Assembly (NCBI GenBank): GCA_903939735.1
Contig: CAJAIA010000001.1
Span: forward strand, 1-39,168
Reading direction: 5' to 3'
Length of the DNA stretch: 39,168 nt
DNA from: an uncultured Ignavibacteria bacterium
Lineage (GTDB): Bacteria; Bacteroidota; Ignavibacteria; Kapaibacteriales; Kapaibacteriaceae
Below the pieces are notes generated by a model, which was given only the letters and a program-made list of their open reading frames with translations, did not search any database and had not been told where the DNA came from. Position numbers and translations under genes: made by a program. This document shows, in pieces, positions 16,886-28,342 of this stretch (position 1 is the first letter of the stretch; each line of letters begins with the position of its first letter).

Positions 16886-17396
16886 TACGTTTCTGACTGC
16901 GTCAAATGTGATCAGCATTGTGCGCGGAGTGATGACGATACCCATCGTCGTGGCACTCATGTCGCACGATCGCTGGCTCGCTGTCGTGCTCTGTTTGGTG
17001 GCTGCCATAACCGACTGGCTCGATGGGTTTGTAGCTCGACGGACGGGGACGGTAAGCGAGTGGGGGAAGGTTCTGGATCCCGTGGCCGATAAGATTCTCG
17101 TCGGTGCCGTTGTTGTGGTTCTGACCATCCAGGGGATCTTGCCTCCCTGGTTCGTGGCTGCCGTCATCCTGCGTGATGTTGTGATTCTCATGGGTGCCTG
17201 GTATGCGAAAACACGGTCTGCCGTGATCCTCCCTTCGTTGATGAGCGGGAAGCTCGCCGTATCGGCCATTGCCCTCGCCGGGGTCGTAAGTATGGCACTC
17301 GGTGAACCGTCATTCGCATTGATTATCGTGAGCTGTTGTGTTATGGCCGTATCTTTGTGGCAATACGCAATGAGACTCCATGGGCTTCTTCGATAA
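16863..17396 (+). CDS. pgsA: CDP-alcohol phosphatidyltransferase (PgsA-like)
   Basis: This 177-aa inner-membrane enzyme carries the complete CDP-alcohol phosphotransferase motif: D51, D54, G55, A58, R59, G68, D72 and D76 (DWLDGFVAR...GKVLDPVADK). PgsA joins CDP-diacylglycerol and glycerol-3-phosphate to make phosphatidylglycerol phosphate, the precursor of phosphatidylglycerol and cardiolipin. Five to six hydrophobic segments follow, as expected. The LDPVADK ending is typical of PgsA, although phosphatidylinositol-type or phosphatidylserine-type homologues share the core. The start at 16863 overlaps the symporter gene by 23 bp. An ATG 42 bp upstream is also in frame but adds an unlikely leader. 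The end overlaps ftsY by 17 bp. Confidence 0.9.
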   Translation: MSSQLPRDTFLTASNVISIVRGVMTIPIVVALMSHDRWLAVVLCLVAAITDWLDGFVARRTGTVSEWGKVLDPVADKILVGAVVVVLTIQGILPPWFVAAVILRDVVILMGAWYAKTRSAVILPSLMSGKLAVSAIALAGVVSMALGEPSFALIIVSCCVMAVSLWQYAMRLHGLLR

Positions 17397-18387
17397 ATTC
17401 AAGCAAAAAATTAGTGGTGTGACCGAGGCGCTCTCCTTTGATCGTCTCAAAGAAGGTCTGTCCAAAACCCGAGAATCCCTCGTCGGTAAGCTGCGCTCTG
17501 TGCTCTTTATGGGGCGCAAGATCGATGCACAACTTCTGAGTGAGATCGAAGAGATCCTCATTACATCGGACGTCGGTGTAACGACGACCGAGAAGATCAT
17601 CAGTAGGCTCACCGACCGCGTGAAGAAGGACAATATTCAGGAAGCTGAGCTCATTCTCGATGTCCTGAAGGAAGAAATCGCCGCTATGGTGGCACAGTCT
17701 CCTTCTGCGCAAAACGACGCGACATTCGCCATTGACGAGGCTACTAAGCCCCATGTCATTATGCTCATCGGAGTGAATGGTGTTGGCAAGACCACAACCA
17801 TTGGGAAGCTTGCACACAACTACAAGCGAGCCGGTCGCAGCGTCCTCATCGGCGCTGCCGATACATTCCGTGCAGCCGCAAACGAACAATTGGAAGTCTG
17901 GGCGCAACGAGCGGGTGTTGATATCGTCCAGCAGCAGCACGGTGCCGATCCTGCTGCTGTGGCATATGATACCTTGTCGGCAGCAAAAGCTCGAGGTACA
18001 GACGTTGTGATCATCGATACCGCAGGGCGTTTGCACAACAAACAAGGACTCATGCAGGAGCTCGAGAAGATCGGTCGTGTCATGAAGAAGATCCAGCCGG
18101 ACGCTCCTCACGACATCTTCTTGGCGCTCGACGCCACAACGGGTCAGAACGCCCTCCAGCAGGCGAAGGAGTTCACCAAGGTGGCCCCCATAACAGGTAT
18201 TATCCTGACCAAGCTTGACGGCACGGCCAAGGGCGGGGCGGTTTTGGCAATTACTGATGCAATGCAGATCCCAGTACGTTATATTGGGGTGGGCGAGCGG
18301 ATCGACGACCTCCAGGTTTTTGATGCGAGCGCGTTCGTAGAGGCGATGTTCTCTGACGCCGCTTCCGACGAACCAGCAGGACAATAG
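17380..18387 (+). CDS. ftsY: Signal recognition particle receptor FtsY
   Basis: FtsY is the membrane-associated GTPase that receives ribosome-nascent chain-SRP complexes for co-translational insertion of membrane proteins. The 335-aa protein has an N domain (about 20-110, helical). The NG GTPase motifs are G1 GVNGVGKTTT (131-140), DTFRAAA, DTAGR and TKLDGTAKGG. The C-terminal GVGERIDDLQVF is also characteristic. The acidic A domain found in E. coli is missing, as in many bacteria, and the N-terminus MGFFDKFKQKI is a short amphipathic membrane-binding helix. It overlaps pgsA by 17 bp. SRP's Ffh is not in the window. Confidence 0.97.
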   Translation: MGFFDKFKQKISGVTEALSFDRLKEGLSKTRESLVGKLRSVLFMGRKIDAQLLSEIEEILITSDVGVTTTEKIISRLTDRVKKDNIQEAELILDVLKEEIAAMVAQSPSAQNDATFAIDEATKPHVIMLIGVNGVGKTTTIGKLAHNYKRAGRSVLIGAADTFRAAANEQLEVWAQRAGVDIVQQQHGADPAAVAYDTLSAAKARGTDVVIIDTAGRLHNKQGLMQELEKIGRVMKKIQPDAPHDIFLALDATTGQNALQQAKEFTKVAPITGIILTKLDGTAKGGAVLAITDAMQIPVRYIGVGERIDDLQVFDASAFVEAMFSDAASDEPAGQ

Positions 18388-18416: not shown

Positions 18417-18695
18417 ATGGATGCGAATGTGATCGCAGGTTTAACGTATTACGCAACGCTATGCCTCGGCGTAGGCGCTAGGGTGTTTCGTCGCCGTTTT
18501 GGTGTCTGGCATCATGTGATGTTCGGATGTTCATGCATTACACTCGCAGTGGCCGTGATTCTCAATCCATCACCCATACATGTTCTTCCCGCAATCGCAC
18601 TCCTCGTTCTCCCCGCCACACGCCCGCAACAGTCACGCGTGCATGATCTTGTGGCTACGATTGGTGCCATCTCTGCGATCTTTCTCATCCTGTAG
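18417..18695 (+). CDS. Small integral membrane protein, unknown function
   Basis: This 92-aa protein was not recognised. It has about three hydrophobic segments (roughly residues 5-22, 33-50 and 52-65, with another at the very end), separated by short basic loops (RVFRRRFG, RPQQSRVHD). It ends in IFLIL. A GGAG lies 7 nt before the ATG, and that GGAG can pair with CTCC at 18397-18400, which might weakly mask the site. It starts 29 bp after ftsY and is followed 11 bp later by another unknown membrane protein. Size, codon use and a good ribosome binding site support a real gene. Confidence 0.65.
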   Translation: MDANVIAGLTYYATLCLGVGARVFRRRFGVWHHVMFGCSCITLAVAVILNPSPIHVLPAIALLVLPATRPQQSRVHDLVATIGAISAIFLIL

Positions 18696-18706
18696 TCTGT
18701 ATTTGC

Positions 18707-19219
18707 ATGTCTAAGGCAGAAGGTTCGCGCATCCCGCACGCGCGGTGGATTGTCCTCATCCTTGCGCTTGTTGCCGTGGTATATCTCGGAATGGTGCTAT
18801 GGAAGTTGTTCAATGAAGCAAACATGGCCTTCGGTCTCCTTGGCACTGAACAGCAGGGGATTGAGCGCTTGATCACAGCGCGTGAGCACACTGACCCCGA
18901 TGTCGATACCGTACTCACACCACGCCAGATCTCTGTTCTTCTCGACATTGCCGAGGACGTCTCGCGTCTAACTCCCGGTGCTGATCTGGCACAGCGAACC
19001 CGCCAGATACTTGTGCAACGGTTGAATGCGTCCTCGATGACACTTGCTGAGTACCGTCGTGCACGAACACGCATCGAGCACTTCCTCATCGAGAAGCCAC
19101 GCAGGAATCAGCCAGACTCCCTAACTGCGGATCGTATGGCCGTGGTTCTGCCGCGATTCAAGCAGGTTGCACGCTTTTTCAAAGAGCATCAAGACAGCAT
19201 TGGGTTAGCACCATTCTGA
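18707..19219 (+). CDS. Single-pass membrane protein with helical C-terminal part, unknown function
   Basis: This 170-aa protein is not recognised. Residues 1-13 are polar, residues 14-33 (WIVLILALVAVVYLGMVLWK) form one membrane span, and the rest is predicted helical and charged. A block reading LTPRQISVLLDIAEDVSRL is near residue 65, and EYRRARTRIEHFL near 118. No cysteine or catalytic motif stands out. The N-in, C-out topology that the flanking charges suggest would put the soluble part in the periplasm. The gene sits between a small membrane protein and four exported proteins and may serve them, but that is inference from position only. Confidence 0.68.
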   Translation: MSKAEGSRIPHARWIVLILALVAVVYLGMVLWKLFNEANMAFGLLGTEQQGIERLITAREHTDPDVDTVLTPRQISVLLDIAEDVSRLTPGADLAQRTRQILVQRLNASSMTLAEYRRARTRIEHFLIEKPRRNQPDSLTADRMAVVLPRFKQVARFFKEHQDSIGLAPF

Positions 19220-19256: not shown

Positions 19257-19988
19257 ATGCGCACGTTTGCTCTCTGCACCCTTGTTTTCATTCTCTGCTC
19301 GGCGTCTAGTCTCGCACAGGTAGGCTTCGGTCTTCAGATTGCGATTGACGACGAGCTTGTTGCCGATGGTTGGTACACCATCACGCTCCGATTCTATGAT
19401 AACATCGGAGCCACGCAACCGCTTGCCACTGAAGCTGTACCTGGACGTTTCTTGGGTGGCAGATGCGTATTGGTTGCCGGACTCAGTGTGGAGCTTCCAC
19501 CTGAGTTTCTTGAGAACACGACGAGCGCAATAGGTTATGCTCTTGATGGGGCAGACGAGCGAGTTCCACGATTGAGCTTACCGGCGCAGGCCTATGCAGT
19601 TCTCGCGTCACGCGCGCGCATCGCCGATGCCCTTAGTCCTACGTTCACAGGACTCGTCACATCAATCAACGAACTGGCAGGTCCTATAACACTGTCGGCC
19701 GGTTCTGGAATCGACATTGACCGTGCTGGATCAACGTTGGTGATTCAACAGAAACGTCAGCTACTTGCTCACGGCCAAGTGCGCAGTGATAGCTGCGACC
19801 ATGTCTTTCGTATCAATCCAGGTATCGCGATTACTGATCGTATGCGTGTCACGGCGCAGCTCGTCAACAGCACTACGCATATCACGGTTGCAACAGCAAT
19901 CGATGTGACGAACGGCATACTCATCATCACAACAGCAGCACCGCTTCTCCCAACAGAGACGATACTCTGGGAACTACGGAACGAATAA
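19257..19988 (+). CDS. Exported fibre-like protein with C-terminal beta domain (first of three)
   Basis: This 243-aa protein starts with a signal peptide (MRTFALCTLVFILCSASSLA, cut before QVGFG). A beta domain (about 22-110) leads to a short A-rich helix, YAVLASRARIADAL (about 112-125). A phrase common in phage tail-fibre-like and bacterial surface proteins follows (FTGLVTSINELAGPITLSAGSG, about 128-150). The last 75 residues match the end of the next gene's product (IT...N...I.V....VN..I.I.T..PL...I.W.L). No type IX sorting domain or lipobox is present. The ribosome binding site is weak. It lies 37 bp after the previous gene and 36 bp before the next start. It is likely a surface or periplasmic structural protein. 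Confidence 0.75.
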   Translation: MRTFALCTLVFILCSASSLAQVGFGLQIAIDDELVADGWYTITLRFYDNIGATQPLATEAVPGRFLGGRCVLVAGLSVELPPEFLENTTSAIGYALDGADERVPRLSLPAQAYAVLASRARIADALSPTFTGLVTSINELAGPITLSAGSGIDIDRAGSTLVIQQKRQLLAHGQVRSDSCDHVFRINPGIAITDRMRVTAQLVNSTTHITVATAIDVTNGILIITTAAPLLPTETILWELRNE

Positions 19989-20024
19989 GTGATCATCTCT
20001 CTCACCACCATCAAGGGACGTTCT

Positions 20025-20933
20025 ATGCAACGCATGCTCAACATTCTCGCCATCATCACAGCGATAGTCCTCCTCGTGAATGGACAACATCGCTTGATGG
20101 CACAAAGTCAAACGACTGGTACGCTCAACCTGCGAAACACGCAACCATCGACTGTTTCACTATCAATTCCCCAAACGGGTGTTGCAGGTTATACGCTCTT
20201 ACTTCCTGCGCAGCAAGGGTCTGCAGGACAAGTGCTGACGGTTGCTACTGTTACAACCGGACAGTCAAACCTGACATGGAGCGACGCAGCCTACTGGGGT
20301 CTGGCCGGCTCATCGATCGTAAAGGGCGGAACAGCCTCTGGTGAACAATACCTCGGAACATCAAACGAGCAGGATCTTGTGCTCGCAACGAACGGTGTTG
20401 AACGACTTCGCATCAATGGTGCCGCTGGACCTCGACAGGGCTTCATTGGTATAGCGACTGCAACGCCCAATGCGCCGGTTGATCTCGGCGCAACTGTTCT
20501 GCTGTCAAATTCCGGCTCGGCAACAGAACTACGTTTTGCGGAGCCCTTTAGCTCCGGCACTAACTTCACGTCGTTCAAAGCTCGCGAGCAGGCACAGGAT
20601 ATCACCTATACTCTCCCAGGTGCAGCGCCTACATCGGACGGTATGGTACTGACGAGTTCCACGGGTGGAGATCTGCAATGGCGTAGGCCCCTTGCGGATG
20701 TGCGACGTGGCGTGTTTACTCCAGCCATCGGTGCCTTTGTGCACGTCATTGCTGTCGGCACAGACATCACCTCTGGATCCATACCGCTCATCACAATGAT
20801 GAATCCGGCAGGTACGACGATTGGACTGAGCGTCACTGGCGTTGATGACGTCAACGACACGTTCACCGTCGAGACATCCGTTCCGCTCGGTGCGGCCGAT
20901 CGCATCGCCTGGATGATTGTCCAACCGAACTAA
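20025..20933 (+). CDS. Exported tail-fibre-like surface protein (second of three)
   Basis: This 302-aa protein has a signal peptide (MQRMLNILAIITAIVLLVNG, likely cut after LMAQS). It contains the Bacteroidota fibre signature YLGTSNEQDLVLATNGVERL (near residue 105), followed by GFIGIATATPNAPVDLG. A repeated unit occurs at about 50-85 and 195-230 (YTL-LP...G..VL......L.W). The last 75 residues resemble the C-terminus of the preceding gene's product. An earlier in-frame GTG at 19989 would add 12 polar residues before the signal peptide. The ATG at 20025, with AGGGA 8 nt upstream, is preferred. Similar motifs occur in phage tail fibres and in surface proteins of this phylum; no other prophage genes are near, so a host surface role is favoured. 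Confidence 0.78.
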   Translation: MQRMLNILAIITAIVLLVNGQHRLMAQSQTTGTLNLRNTQPSTVSLSIPQTGVAGYTLLLPAQQGSAGQVLTVATVTTGQSNLTWSDAAYWGLAGSSIVKGGTASGEQYLGTSNEQDLVLATNGVERLRINGAAGPRQGFIGIATATPNAPVDLGATVLLSNSGSATELRFAEPFSSGTNFTSFKAREQAQDITYTLPGAAPTSDGMVLTSSTGGDLQWRRPLADVRRGVFTPAIGAFVHVIAVGTDITSGSIPLITMMNPAGTTIGLSVTGVDDVNDTFTVETSVPLGAADRIAWMIVQPN

Positions 20934-20936
20934 CAC

Positions 20937-22352
20937 ATGCTGCTCGTTGCCTTCATACTTGCACTTCTCCCATGCAGCGTGCGACTGTCTGCACAGGGAT
21001 TAAGTACGAGCCGTGTTGAGTCATCAGCGAATGCACCCCTCGTGATTGCTCAACGTGCACCTGCGGGAATGCCGATCCGCATTCTCGCTGGTGCAGGCGG
21101 TTTGACGCGTGCTCTTGAGATCGACGGAACAGGAGGTACGTGGCTTCGAGGTCCAGTGAGTATCGGTGCGCTCACGGGAGCAGCACCACTCGAAGTCATG
21201 CGACTTTCAACGATAGCTGCAACTGACGGCAAAGGAATGGTCGTCTCACTCAATGGGTGTTCAACGAGCAGCGGCGTTGTCATCGCCGACATCGGCATGA
21301 CAGGTTCCGACCATGCTGGTATGGTGCTTTCGTCGGCAGCCAATGGTGTTGGTACCGGACTACGCATAGGAGGTCCATCAGGCGCAAACCGACCGACACT
21401 TGCCACGGGTATCGATATCACGGGTGGAGTGGGGATGAGGTACAATGCCCTTTCAAGCGGTACAGGTACTGCCCTCGATATCGGTGGATCTGTCCCACCA
21501 CGGCGCGGGATGGAAGTCGTAGCAGCTGGTTCGGATCATATCGGTGTGATTGCACACGCCAATACACTCGGTGTGGGTCTTGTCGGCTCGTCTCGCTCGC
21601 TATCATACCCGACGGTCGGCCCATTTGCTCGGATCGGTGTCGTAGGACATAGCGCAACGAATTCCGCCGTAAGTATGGATTCGAGCACCGGTATGCTAGG
21701 CATAGGAATTCGAGGTGGCACGAGTGGTGCGGCAACGGTCACGATCGGTGTCCACGGGATAGGAGATCTTCGTTCAGGATCATCAACGGGTATGGCTGTC
21801 GGTGTGCTGGGGCGCGCCCTCCAGAACGACAATTCCGGAGGTCTTTTGATCGGCGGATTACTCAGATCATCCACAAGCGGCTACGCGATCGTCGCCGATG
21901 GTGATGTGTATCTCGGAGGTGCAAGCGACGAGCGCCCGAGCGAACTTTCACGACCGTCGCTTGCGCTGCAATCAGCGGCACCGACAACGCACGTGTTTAA
22001 CCTCCGTGTAACTGGCATGCACCAGCTTCGTGCAATCAGTATCGTGCCCTCAAACGGCACCATCAACATCACCGCAGCAGGAAGCGTAGTCGACTGTGGT
22101 GATCGTTCCGCGCAGCGCATCACTGGTCCATTCGGAGCTCGCATTATCGGTATCACACCCGTTGGTAACGGACGTCTTGTGCAGCTATGTAACACGGGAA
22201 CACAGGACATGGTTTTGGTGCATGACGATCAGACGGCTCCAATTCAAACGCGGCTTCAGCTCGCGCGAGAAGTCGATGGTGTTATCCCGAGTTCAGCATG
22301 TATTTGGTTGTGGTACGACGATGAGGTAGACCGATGGCGACACATTCAATGA
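20937..22352 (+). CDS. Exported Gly/Ser-rich repeat protein with tail-spike-like C-terminus (third of three)
   Basis: This 471-aa protein begins with a signal peptide (MLLVAFILALLPCSVRLSAQ). The middle (about 80-330) is built of short Gly-rich repeats of the kind G.G..I.G or G.GV.G.S (for example GTGLRIGG, GTALDIGG, GVIAHANTLGVGLVGSS, GIGIRGG, GVLGRA), as in stacked beta-roll or beta-helix stalks. The last 100 residues resemble tail-fibre/appendage caps: ...GRLVQLCNTGTQDMVLVHDD, then ...IWLWYDDEVDRWRHI at the very end. No type IX domain is seen. The gene begins 3 bp after the previous stop and overlaps the next gene by 19 bp, so the exported proteins form one unit. A surface fibre or adhesin is the most likely role. 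Confidence 0.78.
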   Translation: MLLVAFILALLPCSVRLSAQGLSTSRVESSANAPLVIAQRAPAGMPIRILAGAGGLTRALEIDGTGGTWLRGPVSIGALTGAAPLEVMRLSTIAATDGKGMVVSLNGCSTSSGVVIADIGMTGSDHAGMVLSSAANGVGTGLRIGGPSGANRPTLATGIDITGGVGMRYNALSSGTGTALDIGGSVPPRRGMEVVAAGSDHIGVIAHANTLGVGLVGSSRSLSYPTVGPFARIGVVGHSATNSAVSMDSSTGMLGIGIRGGTSGAATVTIGVHGIGDLRSGSSTGMAVGVLGRALQNDNSGGLLIGGLLRSSTSGYAIVADGDVYLGGASDERPSELSRPSLALQSAAPTTHVFNLRVTGMHQLRAISIVPSNGTINITAAGSVVDCGDRSAQRITGPFGARIIGITPVGNGRLVQLCNTGTQDMVLVHDDQTAPIQTRLQLAREVDGVIPSSACIWLWYDDEVDRWRHIQ

Positions 22353-24373
22353 TCTGTACATACATGATGCACGTACTTGCTCTTGCGATGCTATGTGCCG
22401 CGCCATGCCTAGCTAGTAGTGATCCACATCACCAACGAGCGTGCCGCATTGTAGACCTTGATTCATGCGCTGGTATTGCTCGTGTCGCGATACCGTCCTT
22501 CTTCCGCTCAGGTGACACGGTCGTGATCATGCAGACGCAGTCGATCGATGCACGTCTGACGGGGGCCCTTGAGTGGAACGTCGTTGATACGCTCGTTGGA
22601 TCTGCGCTGCACCTGCGGTACGTCCTCCAGGGTCGGTACGATCCGCAAGGTGAACTCCAGGTGATCAAGGCAATCACAACACCTTCACGTGATGCCCTGT
22701 CTGCCATCACCGTTTCACCGTGGAATGGTCAGCATGGCGGTGTCCTCGCTGTGATCAGTCGTGATACGCTTCTACTTGACGGCAGTATCTCGGCATCAGG
22801 TGTAGGGTATCGTGGCGGCGTACAACTCTACAACGCACGTGATACAGCCGAAGAGCAGATCTCGACAACCACCGAGGGCATTGTTCCGTCGCGGAATGGA
22901 CAGGCACGCAACGGAGGTGGACATGGAGGGTCGCACGTGGCGCGCGGAGGACGTGGAGGATTGACGACGGATGCGTTTCCAATTGTTGATGTCCAGACAT
23001 CAACGGACGTCATTGAGACGCGCGATACATCGCGCTGTCGAGCGTTTATGGGCAGCGGAGGCGGCTACGGACATCAAAATGATCTTCGGGGTGGGCGAGG
23101 AGGAAACGGGGGTGGCGTTGTGATTCTCTCTGCGCCGGCGATAGTTGCCACACAGCGTGCATCGATAGATGCATCTGGTAGCGATGGCGGCGATGCTCAA
23201 CAGGATGGCGCGGGTGGAGGTGGTTCAGGTGGTACGATCATGCTCCTTGCAGATACGATCATTGGTGCATTGCGCTGTGATGTATCAGGCGGTATCGGTG
23301 GCACTGCACGTGGTACGATCTTTCGCTACGGACCCGGGGGTGGTGGATCGGGAGGACTTTTGCATGTAGCACATTATGGTCTGCTCAACGCAATCCGACT
23401 TCAGCGCGACGGTGGAGGCGAGGGGCGATCATTACGTGAGGATGGATTGCCACCAGTCACACACAATGCCACGCCCGGTGAAGAAGGTGTGATTCGCGTT
23501 CATCCGTGGAAGCTCCTGCATTCTCGATCAGAGTATGCTGCACGCACGCTCATTGCGCGTGACACCACGATCGACGGAGTTGTATACACGCGAATCACTA
23601 CGCTTCATGGGACGCCTCTTCGATGGTACACCGATGGTGAGCCAACAGATGGATCCTCCGAGCTTCTGATACCCTCCGACGCAAGAGTTCGATTGGTGGA
23701 AGCCGACGTTCTTCTCAATGGTTGCATCGCACGTATCGCGATCGATCTACCACAGCAACCGAACAACGAAGATGGCATTCGCATATCGATGGATAATGTC
23801 CGAGCAGATGCTGGAGACACCATCGCGCTCTTTGTCCGCATTGAACGTATCACGTCGCGAGCCACGCTCAAAGGTAGTGTCTACCTCCGCCTGTACCAAC
23901 CCGTCGTTCTCCCATTGAAGGAGCGTGATCGCCGTCGCTCTCGCTACGCAACCGTTGAACTTCCATTCACTCTTGCGAGCGATGCCCAGCGTACGTTTCG
24001 CCGTGTTGAAGCAATAGCCCTGCTAGGTGATTCATCATCGGTGCAGATGAGCATCGATAGTGTAGCCATCTCTCCTGGCGCTACGACAGTTGAACTGCAG
24101 CACGGACGACTCACACTGAATGATATCTGCGACACGCAGGGCAGTCGATTGTTTGACCACGCTACTGGGTTCAGCATACAGGGAAGGGAAGTCAGAATCC
24201 GCGGCGACGACGCAGTGATCACGGATGTGACCGGACGCATTCTTTGCACACTTCAACCTGACGCATCCGGATGGATGAAGGGGACTGTGCCTCAGACATT
24301 TCGCGGTATGTGCTTTGTGACTGTCACAACACACGGACGTATACACACACGTACTGTCCTTGTCGGTGACTGA
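22334..24373 (+). CDS. Gly-rich secreted protein with type IX (Por) C-terminal sorting domain
   Basis: This 679-aa protein has a signal peptide (ending around CLASS, residue 29). An N-terminal beta part carries two cysteines (C37, C45: CRIVDLDSCAG). A Gly-rich section of about 134-342 contains three imperfect repeats of the form GG.V/I-L..-D.I/L....-D.SG/ASG..GG (for example GGVLAVISRDTLLLDGSISA and GSGGTIMLLADTI). A second beta part follows (350-600). The last 65 residues (VRIRGDDAVITDVTGRIL ... RTVLVGD) have the strand pattern of a type IX secretion sorting domain. It should therefore be exported across both membranes and anchored or released at the surface. GAGG lies 8 nt before the ATG at 22334, which overlaps the previous gene by 19 bp. 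Its last codon is one base from the stop of the convergent cytochrome gene. Confidence 0.82.
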   Translation: MATHSMICTYMMHVLALAMLCAAPCLASSDPHHQRACRIVDLDSCAGIARVAIPSFFRSGDTVVIMQTQSIDARLTGALEWNVVDTLVGSALHLRYVLQGRYDPQGELQVIKAITTPSRDALSAITVSPWNGQHGGVLAVISRDTLLLDGSISASGVGYRGGVQLYNARDTAEEQISTTTEGIVPSRNGQARNGGGHGGSHVARGGRGGLTTDAFPIVDVQTSTDVIETRDTSRCRAFMGSGGGYGHQNDLRGGRGGNGGGVVILSAPAIVATQRASIDASGSDGGDAQQDGAGGGGSGGTIMLLADTIIGALRCDVSGGIGGTARGTIFRYGPGGGGSGGLLHVAHYGLLNAIRLQRDGGGEGRSLREDGLPPVTHNATPGEEGVIRVHPWKLLHSRSEYAARTLIARDTTIDGVVYTRITTLHGTPLRWYTDGEPTDGSSELLIPSDARVRLVEADVLLNGCIARIAIDLPQQPNNEDGIRISMDNVRADAGDTIALFVRIERITSRATLKGSVYLRLYQPVVLPLKERDRRRSRYATVELPFTLASDAQRTFRRVEAIALLGDSSSVQMSIDSVAISPGATTVELQHGRLTLNDICDTQGSRLFDHATGFSIQGREVRIRGDDAVITDVTGRILCTLQPDASGWMKGTVPQTFRGMCFVTVTTHGRIHTRTVLVGD

Positions 24374-24374
24374 T

Positions 24375-25892
24375 CTAGCGCGCCGTATTGCGCAAGATGA
24401 GAGCAAGAACTCCGCTTGATGTCCAGGACGTCGCTTGCTCGTCAGGTACGATACCAGGACCGATCGAAACATTCCCAAGAATGATGTCGAGGTCACCGTC
24501 GGCGTCGATATCTGCCATATCGGAAACAAGCCAACGACCGAGTGAGGCACCCGCAACCCTCCATGAAGTCGCATTTCGTTGCAGGACATCTTGGTCGAAA
24601 CGAACGAGGTCGTAGTCGCCGCGATCGAACCGAGGGAAGTAGCTGTAGGAGAAGAGATCCAACTGCGCATCACCCGTGAAGTCAGCCACCCATGCGCCGT
24701 ATGCGCCATCCATCCGTTGGAAGAATGTCTGCTTCCAACCGTCCTTGGACTGGTCAAAGATGTAGACACCGTGATATGGCTTGTATGGTGGCATGTCGTA
24801 GTCGCCATTGTCACCCGCGGTATACACCAGCTCAAGCTGCGGGTCTGCATCGACGTTATACAGTCGTATCGACGATGAGCCTCGCGATGGCGGGAAGGTG
24901 AGGATCTCGCGTGACGTGAACTTCCCACGACCCTGATTTGTGTAGACAACGATCGACTCGCGAGCCTGTGCCATTTGCACGATAATGTCTGGTCGGGAAT
25001 CGCCATTCACGTCATGTACAATTGCACGAATTGCACCTGGCAATGGAGATAGCTGATGGTACACGGTACGACCACCATCAAGGATCTCATACCACCCGAA
25101 CTGTCCGAGAAGATTACCATACTCGCATACCACATAATCAACAATGCGGTCGCCGTTGAGGTCGGCACACTGTACGTCCGTAGGACGGCGCAGTGAATCG
25201 ATCACGACGCGCGTACTCGGCGTCTGATCGGACCACGTGACCTCCACGAGTGAACCAATTGCTGAATCGTGCGGGAGAAGTTTTCCCATGTCGGTGACGT
25301 ACCAACGTCCGCTGTGCGCTGCAACAGATGATGGTGGCCCCTTGAGCGTTATCGATGCTGATACTGTACCATCCGCCGCAGCAACGTGAAGTTGGTTTCT
25401 CATACCGTCACCGATCAACACCCGCTGTGCTGCAGAGTCGAACTTCACAAATGTGGTCATGGGGACAACAGCCGCATTCTTGATCGGGGTGGCCTGAAAC
25501 ACATTGGTGACGCCGCGAACCGTTACCGGAGGCGGAGGGGGAAGTTCGGCCGGAGCACGGTCGATGTACCATTGCGCAATAGCGAACCACTCGTCCTCCG
25601 TCATTGACGGACTCGTCGGGTAGAATGCTTGCAGGTCGTGTGGTAATGTATTGTGTTGCGGTAACGGGTCGAGACCCATGTACCGGCGCATCATGGGAAA
25701 CACCTTCGAGACCCACGTGGCCTTATCGAGATCAGAAGGGGCAGGCAGGACGTGGCATGACTGACAATAGGTGCGAGCCAACCGTTCACCATTGTCATTC
25801 TGCGGTGACGATGCTCTGAACGAGTAAACCGCCGTCACGATGAGACAACAGCTCACGAACCCCATCATCAACCAATGTCTCACAATCCACAC
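24375..25892 (-). CDS. Secreted mono-heme cytochrome c fused to an FG-GAP/VCBS propeller
   Basis: This 505-aa protein starts with a hydrophobic export segment (about 8-24). It has one covalent heme site, CQSCH at 43-47, in a short cytochrome c-type domain (about 30-115). A Pro-rich linker follows ([10 protein letters not shown]). The remaining 380 residues carry FG-GAP/VCBS calcium-type motifs: [47 protein letters not shown] and [13 protein letters not shown]. These are the marks of a seven-bladed propeller. Such fusions could pair electron transfer with protein binding at the cell surface or in the periplasm; the partner is unknown. No second heme or catalytic site is seen. The start overlaps purB by 13 bp, so it is likely read through from the purB promoter. 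Confidence 0.85.
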
Positions 25893-27172
25893 CGGCGGAA
25901 GATCGTGTCAACATTCGAGAGCATACGACGTCCGTCGAAAATTGCATCGAGCTCTGAAACTGACAGTAAGGCTGTGATCTCGGCATCCTCAGCGATCGTT
26001 TGACGCAATGGTGTCTTGGTTTCCCATGTCTGCATTGCATTACGTTGAACCATGCGATAGGCGTCTTCTCGCGTGACGTCTTTACCGATCAGTGCCAGCA
26101 TCACACTCTGAGAGAAGGGGAGACCATGCGTAAGCTCGAGATTACGTTGCATCGCTTCAGGATACACCAGGAGGCGATCAATCAGACCCGTGGCCAGGTG
26201 CAGCATGTAATCCAATGTGATGGTCGAGTCTGGACAAATCACGCGCTCGACAGAGCTATGGGAGATGTCACGCTCATGCCACAGAGCATTGTTCTCGACG
26301 GCAGCCAGAGCATTCGTGCGCAGCAACCGCGCCAGACCACAGATCCGCTCACTCAGGATCGGGTTGCGCTTATGGGGCATTGCAGATGATCCCTTCTGTC
26401 CTGGAGAGAAGTACTCCTCCGCCTCACGCACTTCTGTGCGCTGAAGGTGACGGATCTCCGTACCAATCTTCTCAAGAAACGCGCCGATAAGTCCGAGCGT
26501 CGTGAGGTATTCAGCATGACGATCACGCTGGATGACCTGTGTGCTCACGGGTGCTGGCTTGAGGCCGAGTCGATCGCAGACGTACTCTTCAACAGCGGGG
26601 GACAAGTGTTCAAAGGTGCCCACCGCACCGCTAATCATCCCAACGCTGATTGTCTCAATCGCCCGTTCAAGACGCACAATGCTACGTTCGCACTCCTGAT
26701 GCCACAGCGCAAGTTTGAGACCAAACGTTGTCGGCTCTGCATGGATGCCATGGGACCGACCGATGCAAACAGTGTTCTTGAACTCTACGGCACGGCGTGC
26801 CAAGACATCACGGAACTGCTGAAGGTCTGCAAGGAGCAGTTCTCCCGCCTGCTTAAGCTGCACAGCCAGGCACGTATCAAGCACGTCGCTTGACGTCATG
26901 CCAAGGTGAATGAACCGTGACGATGGCCCCACATACTCGGCAACGTTTGTCGTGAAGGCAATCACATCGTGCTTCGTCGTCTCCTCGATTTCGAGAATGC
27001 GCTGCACATCGAAAGAAGCCTTTTCACGAATCTCACGAACGGCGTCCTTCGGGATCACTCCGAGCTCCGCCTGCGCCTCGCAAGCCAGTATTTCGATCTC
27101 AAGCCAAATGGAGTACTTGTTGTGGTCAGACCAGATAGCGCCCATATCGGGCCGTGTATAGCGTTCAATCAT
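25880..27172 (-). CDS. purB: Adenylosuccinate lyase
   Basis: PurB makes fumarate twice in purine synthesis: from SAICAR to AICAR and from adenylosuccinate to AMP. The 430-aa protein fits the bacterial length and has the superfamily signature [10 protein letters not shown] (262-271), with the catalytic flexible-loop serine S262 or S263. Other family blocks are [12 protein letters not shown] (89-100), [14 protein letters not shown] (138-151; H141 is a general-acid candidate) and [11 protein letters not shown] (180-190). It is preceded by a C-rich leader (seven Cs on its strand at 27176-27182) rather than a purine-rich ribosome site. The 3' end overlaps the cytochrome fusion gene by 13 bp. Confidence 0.97.
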
Positions 27173-27319: not shown

Positions 27320-28342
27320 ATGAGAAAGGTTACGGATATGTTCCCTGCACGCACTGTATTCGCGATCGCCCTCGCAGTTCTCGTCACAGCATGTGGCAAG
27401 CCCGGCGATACACAAGAACCCAAGGAAGTTATCCGCGCACTTTCCGGTGCTGAGGAAACAGAGCTTCGGTCAATGGCTGCTGGTGTGTTTGCCGTTCTGC
27501 CAGACGTGATGCCTGGTCATGAGGGTACAACTGCCGAGATGATCGCGCTTGGTAAATCGTTGTACTTCGACAAGCGCCTTTCCGTGAACGACAAGCAATC
27601 GTGTAATACGTGTCACGACGTTTCCAACGGAGCTGCCGGCGTCGACAACGAGGTGACGTCAGAAGGTGCGCTTGGTGGACGTGGTACGCGAAATTCACCG
27701 ACAGTATTTAATGCTGGTTTTCATGCGATGCAGTTTTGGGATGGACGTGCTGCCGACCTGATCGAGCAGGCGAAGGGTCCAATTTGCAACCCAGCTGAGA
27801 TGGCCATGCCGGAACCTGCGGCTGTCGAGGCGAAGCTCAGGAAGACGGCGGAATACCCTGGACTGTTTGCTGAGGCATTCCCAGAACAACCATCACCTGT
27901 GACGTTTGACAACGTTGCGAAGGCTATTGCTGCCTTTGAGCGCACATTGATTGCACCATCGCGATTTGACAAGTGGATTACAGGCGACACTGCCGCGCTT
28001 ACCATGTCGGAGCGCCGTGGCATGCACACCTTCATCAACACGGGTTGCATTTCATGTCATAACGGTCCACTGTTTGGCGGCAACGGTCTCCAAAAGCTGG
28101 GCAACGTGCAGCCGTATGCGACGTCCGATCCCGGACGCTATAACGTTACGAAGGACCCAGCCGACAGCCTGATGTTCAAGGTGCCGTCATTGCGCCTCGC
28201 AGCGCGAACGAAGCCGTACTTCCATGATGGTAGCGTACCGACTCTGTCGAAGGCCATCGAACTCATGGGCTGGCATCAGCTCGGCAAGAAGCTCAGCAAC
28301 CAAGATGTTGCCGAGATCGAGACGTTCCTCAAAGCACTCTAA
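27320..28342 (+). CDS. Di-heme cytochrome c peroxidase (CcpA/MauG family), predicted lipoprotein
   Basis: This 340-aa protein has two covalent heme motifs, CNTCH (95-99) and CISCH (243-247), in the arrangement of bacterial di-heme peroxidases. These reduce hydrogen peroxide to water with electrons from small cytochromes. Family landmarks are LGKSLYFDKRLS (78-89), RNSPTVFNAGFH (124-135) and GPICNPAEMAMP (153-164), where family members usually have L or M in place of the Cys. FWDGRA (139-144) and the closing KPYFHDGSVPTL are also present. The export signal ends in VTAC, so C25 should be lipidated, tethering the enzyme in the periplasm. The ATG at 27320 is listed; an in-frame ATG at 27338 has AAAGG upstream and could equally be the start. 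It is divergent from purB and the cytochrome fusion gene. Confidence 0.93.
   Translation: MRKVTDMFPARTVFAIALAVLVTACGKPGDTQEPKEVIRALSGAEETELRSMAAGVFAVLPDVMPGHEGTTAEMIALGKSLYFDKRLSVNDKQSCNTCHDVSNGAAGVDNEVTSEGALGGRGTRNSPTVFNAGFHAMQFWDGRAADLIEQAKGPICNPAEMAMPEPAAVEAKLRKTAEYPGLFAEAFPEQPSPVTFDNVAKAIAAFERTLIAPSRFDKWITGDTAALTMSERRGMHTFINTGCISCHNGPLFGGNGLQKLGNVQPYATSDPGRYNVTKDPADSLMFKVPSLRLAARTKPYFHDGSVPTLSKAIELMGWHQLGKKLSNQDVAEIETFLKAL

Follow-up and report, generated by a model that had tools for sequence, protein, structure and literature searches.

A conserved four-gene locus in one family of Ignavibacteria probably encodes a phage-tail-fibre-like surface fibre split over three secreted proteins

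How fibres of the mosaic adhesive trimer (MAT) type cross the outer membrane and stay on it is an open question. The MAT fibres of Bdellovibrio bacteriovorus are secreted proteins, displayed on the cell surface, with phage-like shaft modules of trimeric beta-helix or prism fold and variable C-terminal tips, and all 21 of them carry a conserved, beta-rich domain of about 130 aa directly behind the signal peptide; this N-domain is described as having no homologue in the PDB, and the surface element that it binds is given by the authors as unidentified (Caulton et al. 2024, PMC10769870). The locus analysed here may bear on this question. It is a run of four genes, A to D, within a stretch of 39,168 nucleotides (the window) from an uncultured Ignavibacteria bacterium. 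In our reading, which on balance is the probable one, A, B and C form a cell-surface fibre of the MAT or tail-fibre type that is split over three secreted proteins, and D is probably its partner in export, capping or anchoring.

All four genes lie on the forward strand. Gene A (19257..19988, 243 aa; delimited by its ORF and a 20-row family alignment) comprises a signal peptide, the domain A_N (19320..19646, aa 22-130), a short linker and a C-terminal head (19749..19985, aa 165-243, placed by profile comparison). Gene B (20025..20933, 302 aa when read from an internal ATG) has a signal peptide, two fibre modules, B_mid and B_mod2, around a QDLVLATNG region (20298..20690, aa 92-222), and a C-terminal head (20691..20930, aa 223-302, placed by hhalign). 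Gene C (20937..22352, 471 aa) has a signal peptide, a G-rich repeated fibre body with GTGLRIGG and GTALDIGG units, and a C-terminal head, C_head (22014..22349, aa 360-471), ending WYDDEVDRWRHIQ. Gene D (22334..24373, 679 aa) combines a signal peptide, a Gly-rich AgmC_N-like region (aa 69-345), a middle domain (aa 475-600) and a degenerate, sorting-like C-terminus. In the ORF map, gaps of 36 bp (A-B) and 3 bp (B-C) are followed by an overlap of 19 bp (C-D). The original prediction was right about the order and spacing of the genes; the motifs that it quoted are found in the sequences, and its view that the proteins are exported agrees with the putative signal-peptide-like N-terminus read from the sequence of all four proteins. 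In the family alignments, the presumed cleavage site is followed by a Q that is invariant in B and nearly invariant in A and C.

Upstream of A, on the same strand, lie three closely spaced genes: ftsY (17380..18387, Pfam SRP54), which is the conserved upstream flank, and two small genes that often separate ftsY from A, one for a membrane-like protein of 92 aa (18417..18695) and one for a single-TM-like protein of 170 aa (18707..19219), the latter ending 37 bp 5' of A. Downstream, on the opposite strand, the Pfam scan identified an FG-GAP protein and, as the conserved flank on that side, a purB-like lyase (25880..27172, reverse strand). A tandem repeat search found none, and promoter and terminator scans gave site counts below the mean of shuffles.

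We compared the window with its close relative L041, the contig of which ends inside C, and obtained dN/dS values of 0.26 for A, 0.04 for B and 0.10 for C. These values indicate that all three genes code for proteins and evolve under purifying selection, which is strongest on B. In the family alignments B is likewise the most conserved of the four proteins (mean column identity 63%), and D is the least conserved (29%).

To determine the distribution of the locus, we searched 60 related genomes with all four proteins in turn and drew up a gene map of 24 loci. The A-B-C-D cluster is present, as a single copy, in 22 of the 23 genomes of family f1, to which the window belongs; the 23rd genome is 80% complete. 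Among these 22 genomes, A is present in 21 (the contig of G004 begins inside B) and D is also present in 21 (the contig of G005 ends inside C; the D of G021 is short), and in G001 and G006 the cluster is split over two contigs. At every mapped cluster A, B and C are separate genes, a contrary gene order was seen in 0 of the 24 mapped loci, and in 20 of 21 loci D starts before C has ended (starts estimated from alignments). The genomic site is also fixed. With the window included, ftsY is upstream in 17 of the 18 loci that have DNA there, G013 being the exception, with 1.3-5.9 kb between ftsY and the cluster in G002, G012 and G015; purB is downstream of D in 19/19 loci that reach that far. It should be noted that L041 and L042, judging from their equal lengths, apparently duplicate the contigs G005:C152 and G020:C187 and were not counted as extra evidence, and that a match of the family-A profile in L087, which is a fragment of B, was left out of the counts.

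Full or near-full-length relatives of C were found by its profile in 22/23 f1 genomes. No full-length C was detected in 100 other genomes of the order, with up to 13 candidates scored per genome, or in the 385 non-f1 genomes of a phylum sample, with up to four candidates scored per genome. The phylum sample (n=395) overlaps the order sample, and the 10 f1 genomes in it have C. Outside f1, the profile recovers parts of C, mostly its head. The original prediction had proposed a comparison of gene order within the lineage, and had named homologues scattered singly as an outcome that would speak against it. Gene order is kept across family f1. On the other hand, other fibre genes contain parts of the three fibre proteins A-C, either alone or in mixed combinations.

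Do A, B and C then belong to a phage? A rival explanation is that they are remnant or domesticated genes of a phage tail or tailocin. A module of B is indeed found in 46 viral contigs, and B_mod2 occurs in all 46 viral loci, which were fetched with B; when seven viral ORFs with the B module were scanned, three matched tail fibre families, one matched only a virion structural family, and three matched nothing. Together with a weak match of B to a Bdellovibrio fibre structure (see below), these observations show that the resemblance to phage fibres noted in the original prediction is genuine, and C_head was also found in one of the 46 loci (L109). Conversely, A_N was found in 0/46 viral loci, direct scans of the viral contigs with A and C gave no relative, and PHROGs contained no family that convincingly matched A-C of the window or any of 21 members of the B family. 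The matches of A-C to Pfam, NCBIfam and PHROGs families that did appear were set aside as being at chance level; examples are Adeno_shaft for A (E 0.02, with a score of half the cut-off), A2M in one of the 21 B members (E 0.001) and, for B, the conjugal pilin TrbC (E 0.04).

The setting of the genes also differs from that of a phage. The ten proteins scanned with Pfam, the other genes of the window being known as ORFs, included neither a capsid, terminase or baseplate protein nor an integrase, which agrees with what had been claimed for the neighbourhood. The cluster occupies a fixed site in one copy, with housekeeping genes on both sides, family-wide; the virion structural or integration neighbours and the variable site that are expected of a prophage or tailocin were not seen. 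Thus, a remnant or domesticated tail is highly improbable, the earlier argument against a prophage stands, and the A-B-C-D cluster is core chromosomal equipment. The long tail fibres of phage T4 are segmented and assembled from several gene products. The likeness of A-C to phage tail fibres therefore lies in the shaft module shared with B and in a fibre made, as in T4, from several gene products, whereas the differences are the lack of phage context, the signal peptides and the absence of A_N from the 46 viral loci.

The last ~80 residues are common to A and B (hhalign probability 96%, E 2e-9). Profile comparison of C with A and with B detected no common domain beyond the signal region, and no counterpart of A_N was found by the same means in B or C. 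We ran the module profiles on ORFs fetched around partial matches, and found the modules of the three genes joined in long single chains. A_N is also the N-terminal domain of large single-chain fibres of the order, its matches lying close to the start of ORFs 595-3768 aa long, and B_mid and B_mod2, which are shaft modules of the phage-fibre or MAT type, are repeated in single-chain fibres. We distinguish the following three combinations: (i) A_N at the start, followed by B modules, in nine ORFs from five genomes of other families, these nine having been selected because matches to A and B coincided in them; (ii) A_N near the start and C_head at the very end, in four ORFs of 1610-1902 aa from three genomes of the same genus (one each in G001 and G003, two in G007); (iii) B modules followed by C_head, in further single-chain ORFs. 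Judged from these profile matches, the three proteins consist of modules that also make up long fibre proteins of one chain.

The single chains thus begin with A_N and have C_head behind the B modules, which matches the order of genes A, B and C. This parallel is the main argument for our reading of A, B and C as the base, shaft and tip of one functional fibre, with A_N as the candidate base or anchor domain. Pieces of the C body (C_N and C_core) are flanked on both sides by B-type modules in L160, L163, L164, L166 and L195, so that A_N and C_head are the only parts for which the order of base, shaft and tip is clear.

Another explanation of the same modules is that the three genes encode separate, co-expressed short surface fibres or adhesins, each of which trimerises alone and none of which is a segment of a common fibre, with D as an ordinary type IX cargo protein. 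Each of the three has a signal peptide and a C-terminal head of its own, as independent fibres would, and f1 genomes hold other clusters with several fibre ORFs in a row. However, B and C have no counterpart of A_N, and as independent fibres both would be without the usual base; the strict gene order across the family is likewise not what this explanation leads one to expect. We consider it rather unlikely.

The other clusters just mentioned form a second kind of fibre cluster. A relative of one of its genes is present in 15/23 f1 genomes, including the window's own (G000:C28). Where mapped, these clusters consist of several fibre ORFs with heads of the A/B type or the C type, with four or five conserved genes behind them; nine of the latter, from two genomes, were tested and had no Pfam match. 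In the second-kind clusters there are ~100 extra residues after C_head, which, like the flanked pieces of the C body, slightly mars the parallel in order. These clusters suggest that fibres split over several genes are recurrent in this family.

How close is the predicted three-chain fibre to a MAT? The B profile matches PDB 8OL4/8ONF (MAT fibre Bd2439) with E 4.8e-4 for the whole chain, made up of two short stretches (E 2.5 and 0.66), neither of which is significant alone; one is at a GIGT motif in the shaft, and the other, in the tip, is probably due to chance. L184, a sibling fibre with the same modules, matches the structures of Bd2133 and Bd3182 (8OND and 8OJN; E 1.3e-4 and 5.4e-4), and another sibling, L191, gave no MAT match. 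A has a domain of ~110 aa behind its signal peptide, which is also the first domain of large fibres and occupies the same place as the MAT N-domain; the likeness is one of position. Mean pLDDT of the predicted structures, made from three-row alignments (window, L041 and L042), was 33 for C and 50 for A, and at these values we claim no fold; a Foldseek search of the A model against the PDB returned mainly antibody Fabs, and none of its matches was convincing (best E 0.085). In summary, A-C resemble MATs as fibre proteins of a secreted type with phage-like shaft modules, of which B and one sibling match MAT structures weakly. MATs, in contrast, are single chains with N-domain, shaft and tip in one polypeptide, whereas the candidate base, shaft and tip are here encoded by three genes that are kept as a unit, with single-chain forms at other loci. 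The locus further differs from MATs in having no S74 domain detectable by Pfam and in the attachment of a fourth gene of the T9SS-cargo type.

This fourth gene, D, had been credited with a type IX sorting domain, which the domain searches did not bear out: D has no Pfam match at E<=1, it is not among the 89 Por_Secre_tail (PF18962) matches listed for its own genome, and TIGR04183 is weakly matched by one of 17 D members (E=0.0069). The genome itself has a T9SS, as indicated by SprA_N over its cut-off and by the 89 PF18962 matches listed. The C-terminal half of D, including most of the presumed sorting region, can be aligned by profile (hhalign 96.7%, E 3e-10) with a group of related small exported proteins, which we call partners, and the Pfam sorting domain is present in 3/9 members of this group. 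From this profile alignment it is plausible that D carries a degenerate sorting domain. The D members of genus g5 have a shorter C-terminal end. In the D alignment (A4), row L094 contains unknown letters; it was dropped from the domain profiles that it spoils and kept in the full-length D profile.

The partner profile was built from nine proteins that were chosen for following fibre genes with a C_head. Of the 23 f1 genomes searched with it, 12 contain full-length matches (E<=1e-39), 19 in all. In 17 of the 17 testable cases, two further matches being at contig edges, the partner match begins 3-60 bp past the end of a fibre ORF; eight of these are independent and nine had built the profile. 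For six of the eight independent partners the upstream ORF has A_N or B modules by profile, and for the other two (G006:C120 and G008:C43) it was accepted on C-terminal resemblance to other fibres. The lesser matches, which bring the total to 24-56 per genome, cover mostly the C-terminal half alone. Since this half is common in exported proteins of f1, the likeness of D to the partners is not specific, and we dropped it as proof of kinship with them. A role of D as a partner is favoured by its position behind the tip gene and by its retention there. The proposal that D serves in export or anchoring thus gains indirect support from the recurrent pairs of fibre and partner, whereas the T9SS domain of D itself is weak. 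D resembles the type IX cargo of Bacteroidota in its middle domain and C-terminal region, which are like those of many f1 exported proteins, and differs in that its sorting domain is undetected by Pfam.

The Gly-rich region of D bears on a further explanation, in which A-D are parts of an envelope or matrix, such as a sheath, a mat or a gliding track, with the AgmC-like region of D as the main structural element and A-C as minor cross-links, and not of an adhesive fibre that projects from the cell. Residues 69-345 of D match the model of the AgmC N-terminal domain (NF047640) with E 7e-27, and 17/17 D members scanned match it. A literature search for AgmC with gliding motility found nothing. 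The retention of one copy family-wide would be easier to reconcile with a structural role than with receptor binding of a variable kind. However, the score of 94.4 bits is well below the cut-off of 275, and D is the least conserved of the four proteins, whereas the shaft protein B is the most conserved. An envelope or matrix made mainly of D is accordingly quite improbable.

The three-chain fibre is the reading to which we return. It is backed by the gene order, the conservation, the homology of the modules, the head common to A and B, and the pairs of fibre and partner, all of which were observed here. Trimerisation, assembly in the order A-B-C, a location on the surface, the role of D and adhesion as the purpose would be parts of the following mechanism. 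Sec signal peptides would carry A-D over the inner membrane; we know of no export route over the outer membrane for A-C. A would sit at the base via A_N, B would extend the fibre, and C would supply the fibre body and the tip, with the head common to A and B as a possible joint between subunits. D, exported along a type IX-like pathway or assisted by one, may cap or anchor the fibre. The strong constraint on B and the family-wide retention of the cluster suggest that the locus encodes a housekeeping structure and not a quickly varying receptor.

A more specific proposal goes further, and we put it forward tentatively and with low confidence: the locus would encode a segmented fibre of three subunits (A base, B shaft, C tip), in which the A/B head forms a socket that receives the following subunit, and a type IX-type partner helps to display the fibre; lineage-wide, partners of this type encoded directly behind fibre genes would be the surface element that holds the N-domain of MAT-like fibres. 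The MAT paper aside, a literature search of titles and abstract openings gave nothing that points to the A-B-C-D cluster. In this locus the predicted base, shaft and tip are each a short protein of their own, and related fibre genes have a candidate partner gene immediately downstream, which makes the order of assembly and the anchoring testable by pairwise binding. If the proposal is true, phage-like fibres would be tied to type IX secretion across a whole bacterial family.

For A, the first gene of the candidate surface-fibre cluster, synonymous divergence (dS) between the window and L041, the contig of a close relative, was 0.15 (window 19257-19988 against L041 739-1467), far below the 0.59 of B and the 0.52 of C in this one genome pair. 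The low dS of A relative to B and C may result either from recombination or from chance.

Two small, fast-evolving membrane-like genes lie between ftsY and A (window 18417-19219), and the gene map shows their order to be reversed, compared to the window, in 6 of the 8 loci in which both were detected. Downstream of D, a secreted FG-GAP repeat protein with a weakly cytochrome c-like N-terminus (CQSCH) is encoded on the minus strand (24375-25892); its gene adjoins D in 15 of the 19 loci extending that far in the gene map, and is absent beside D in four, all from genus g5. A di-haem, MauG-like cytochrome c peroxidase is encoded further along, on the plus strand (27320-28342).

Elsewhere, a fibre gene is paired with a gene for a small exported partner protein, which resembles the C-terminal half of D (L186, L189, L191, L193 and L205-L210); in L205 and L206, three tandem fibre genes precede a single partner gene. 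Two types of fibre end seem to be paired each with one of two partner subtypes.

The window's own genome carries a second fibre cluster (L220 2512-13992, G000:C28), in which several fibre ORFs are followed by a conserved run of proteins of approximately 140, 690, 705, 445 and 270 aa. Clusters of this kind were also found in L213, L214, L216, L217, L218 and L219, and in part in L215; the smallest protein of the run (approximately 140 aa) was not seen in L219. None of the nine conserved-run proteins tested in a Pfam scan had a match. The conserved run behind the fibre ORFs could serve split fibres as a set of assembly or outer-membrane proteins.
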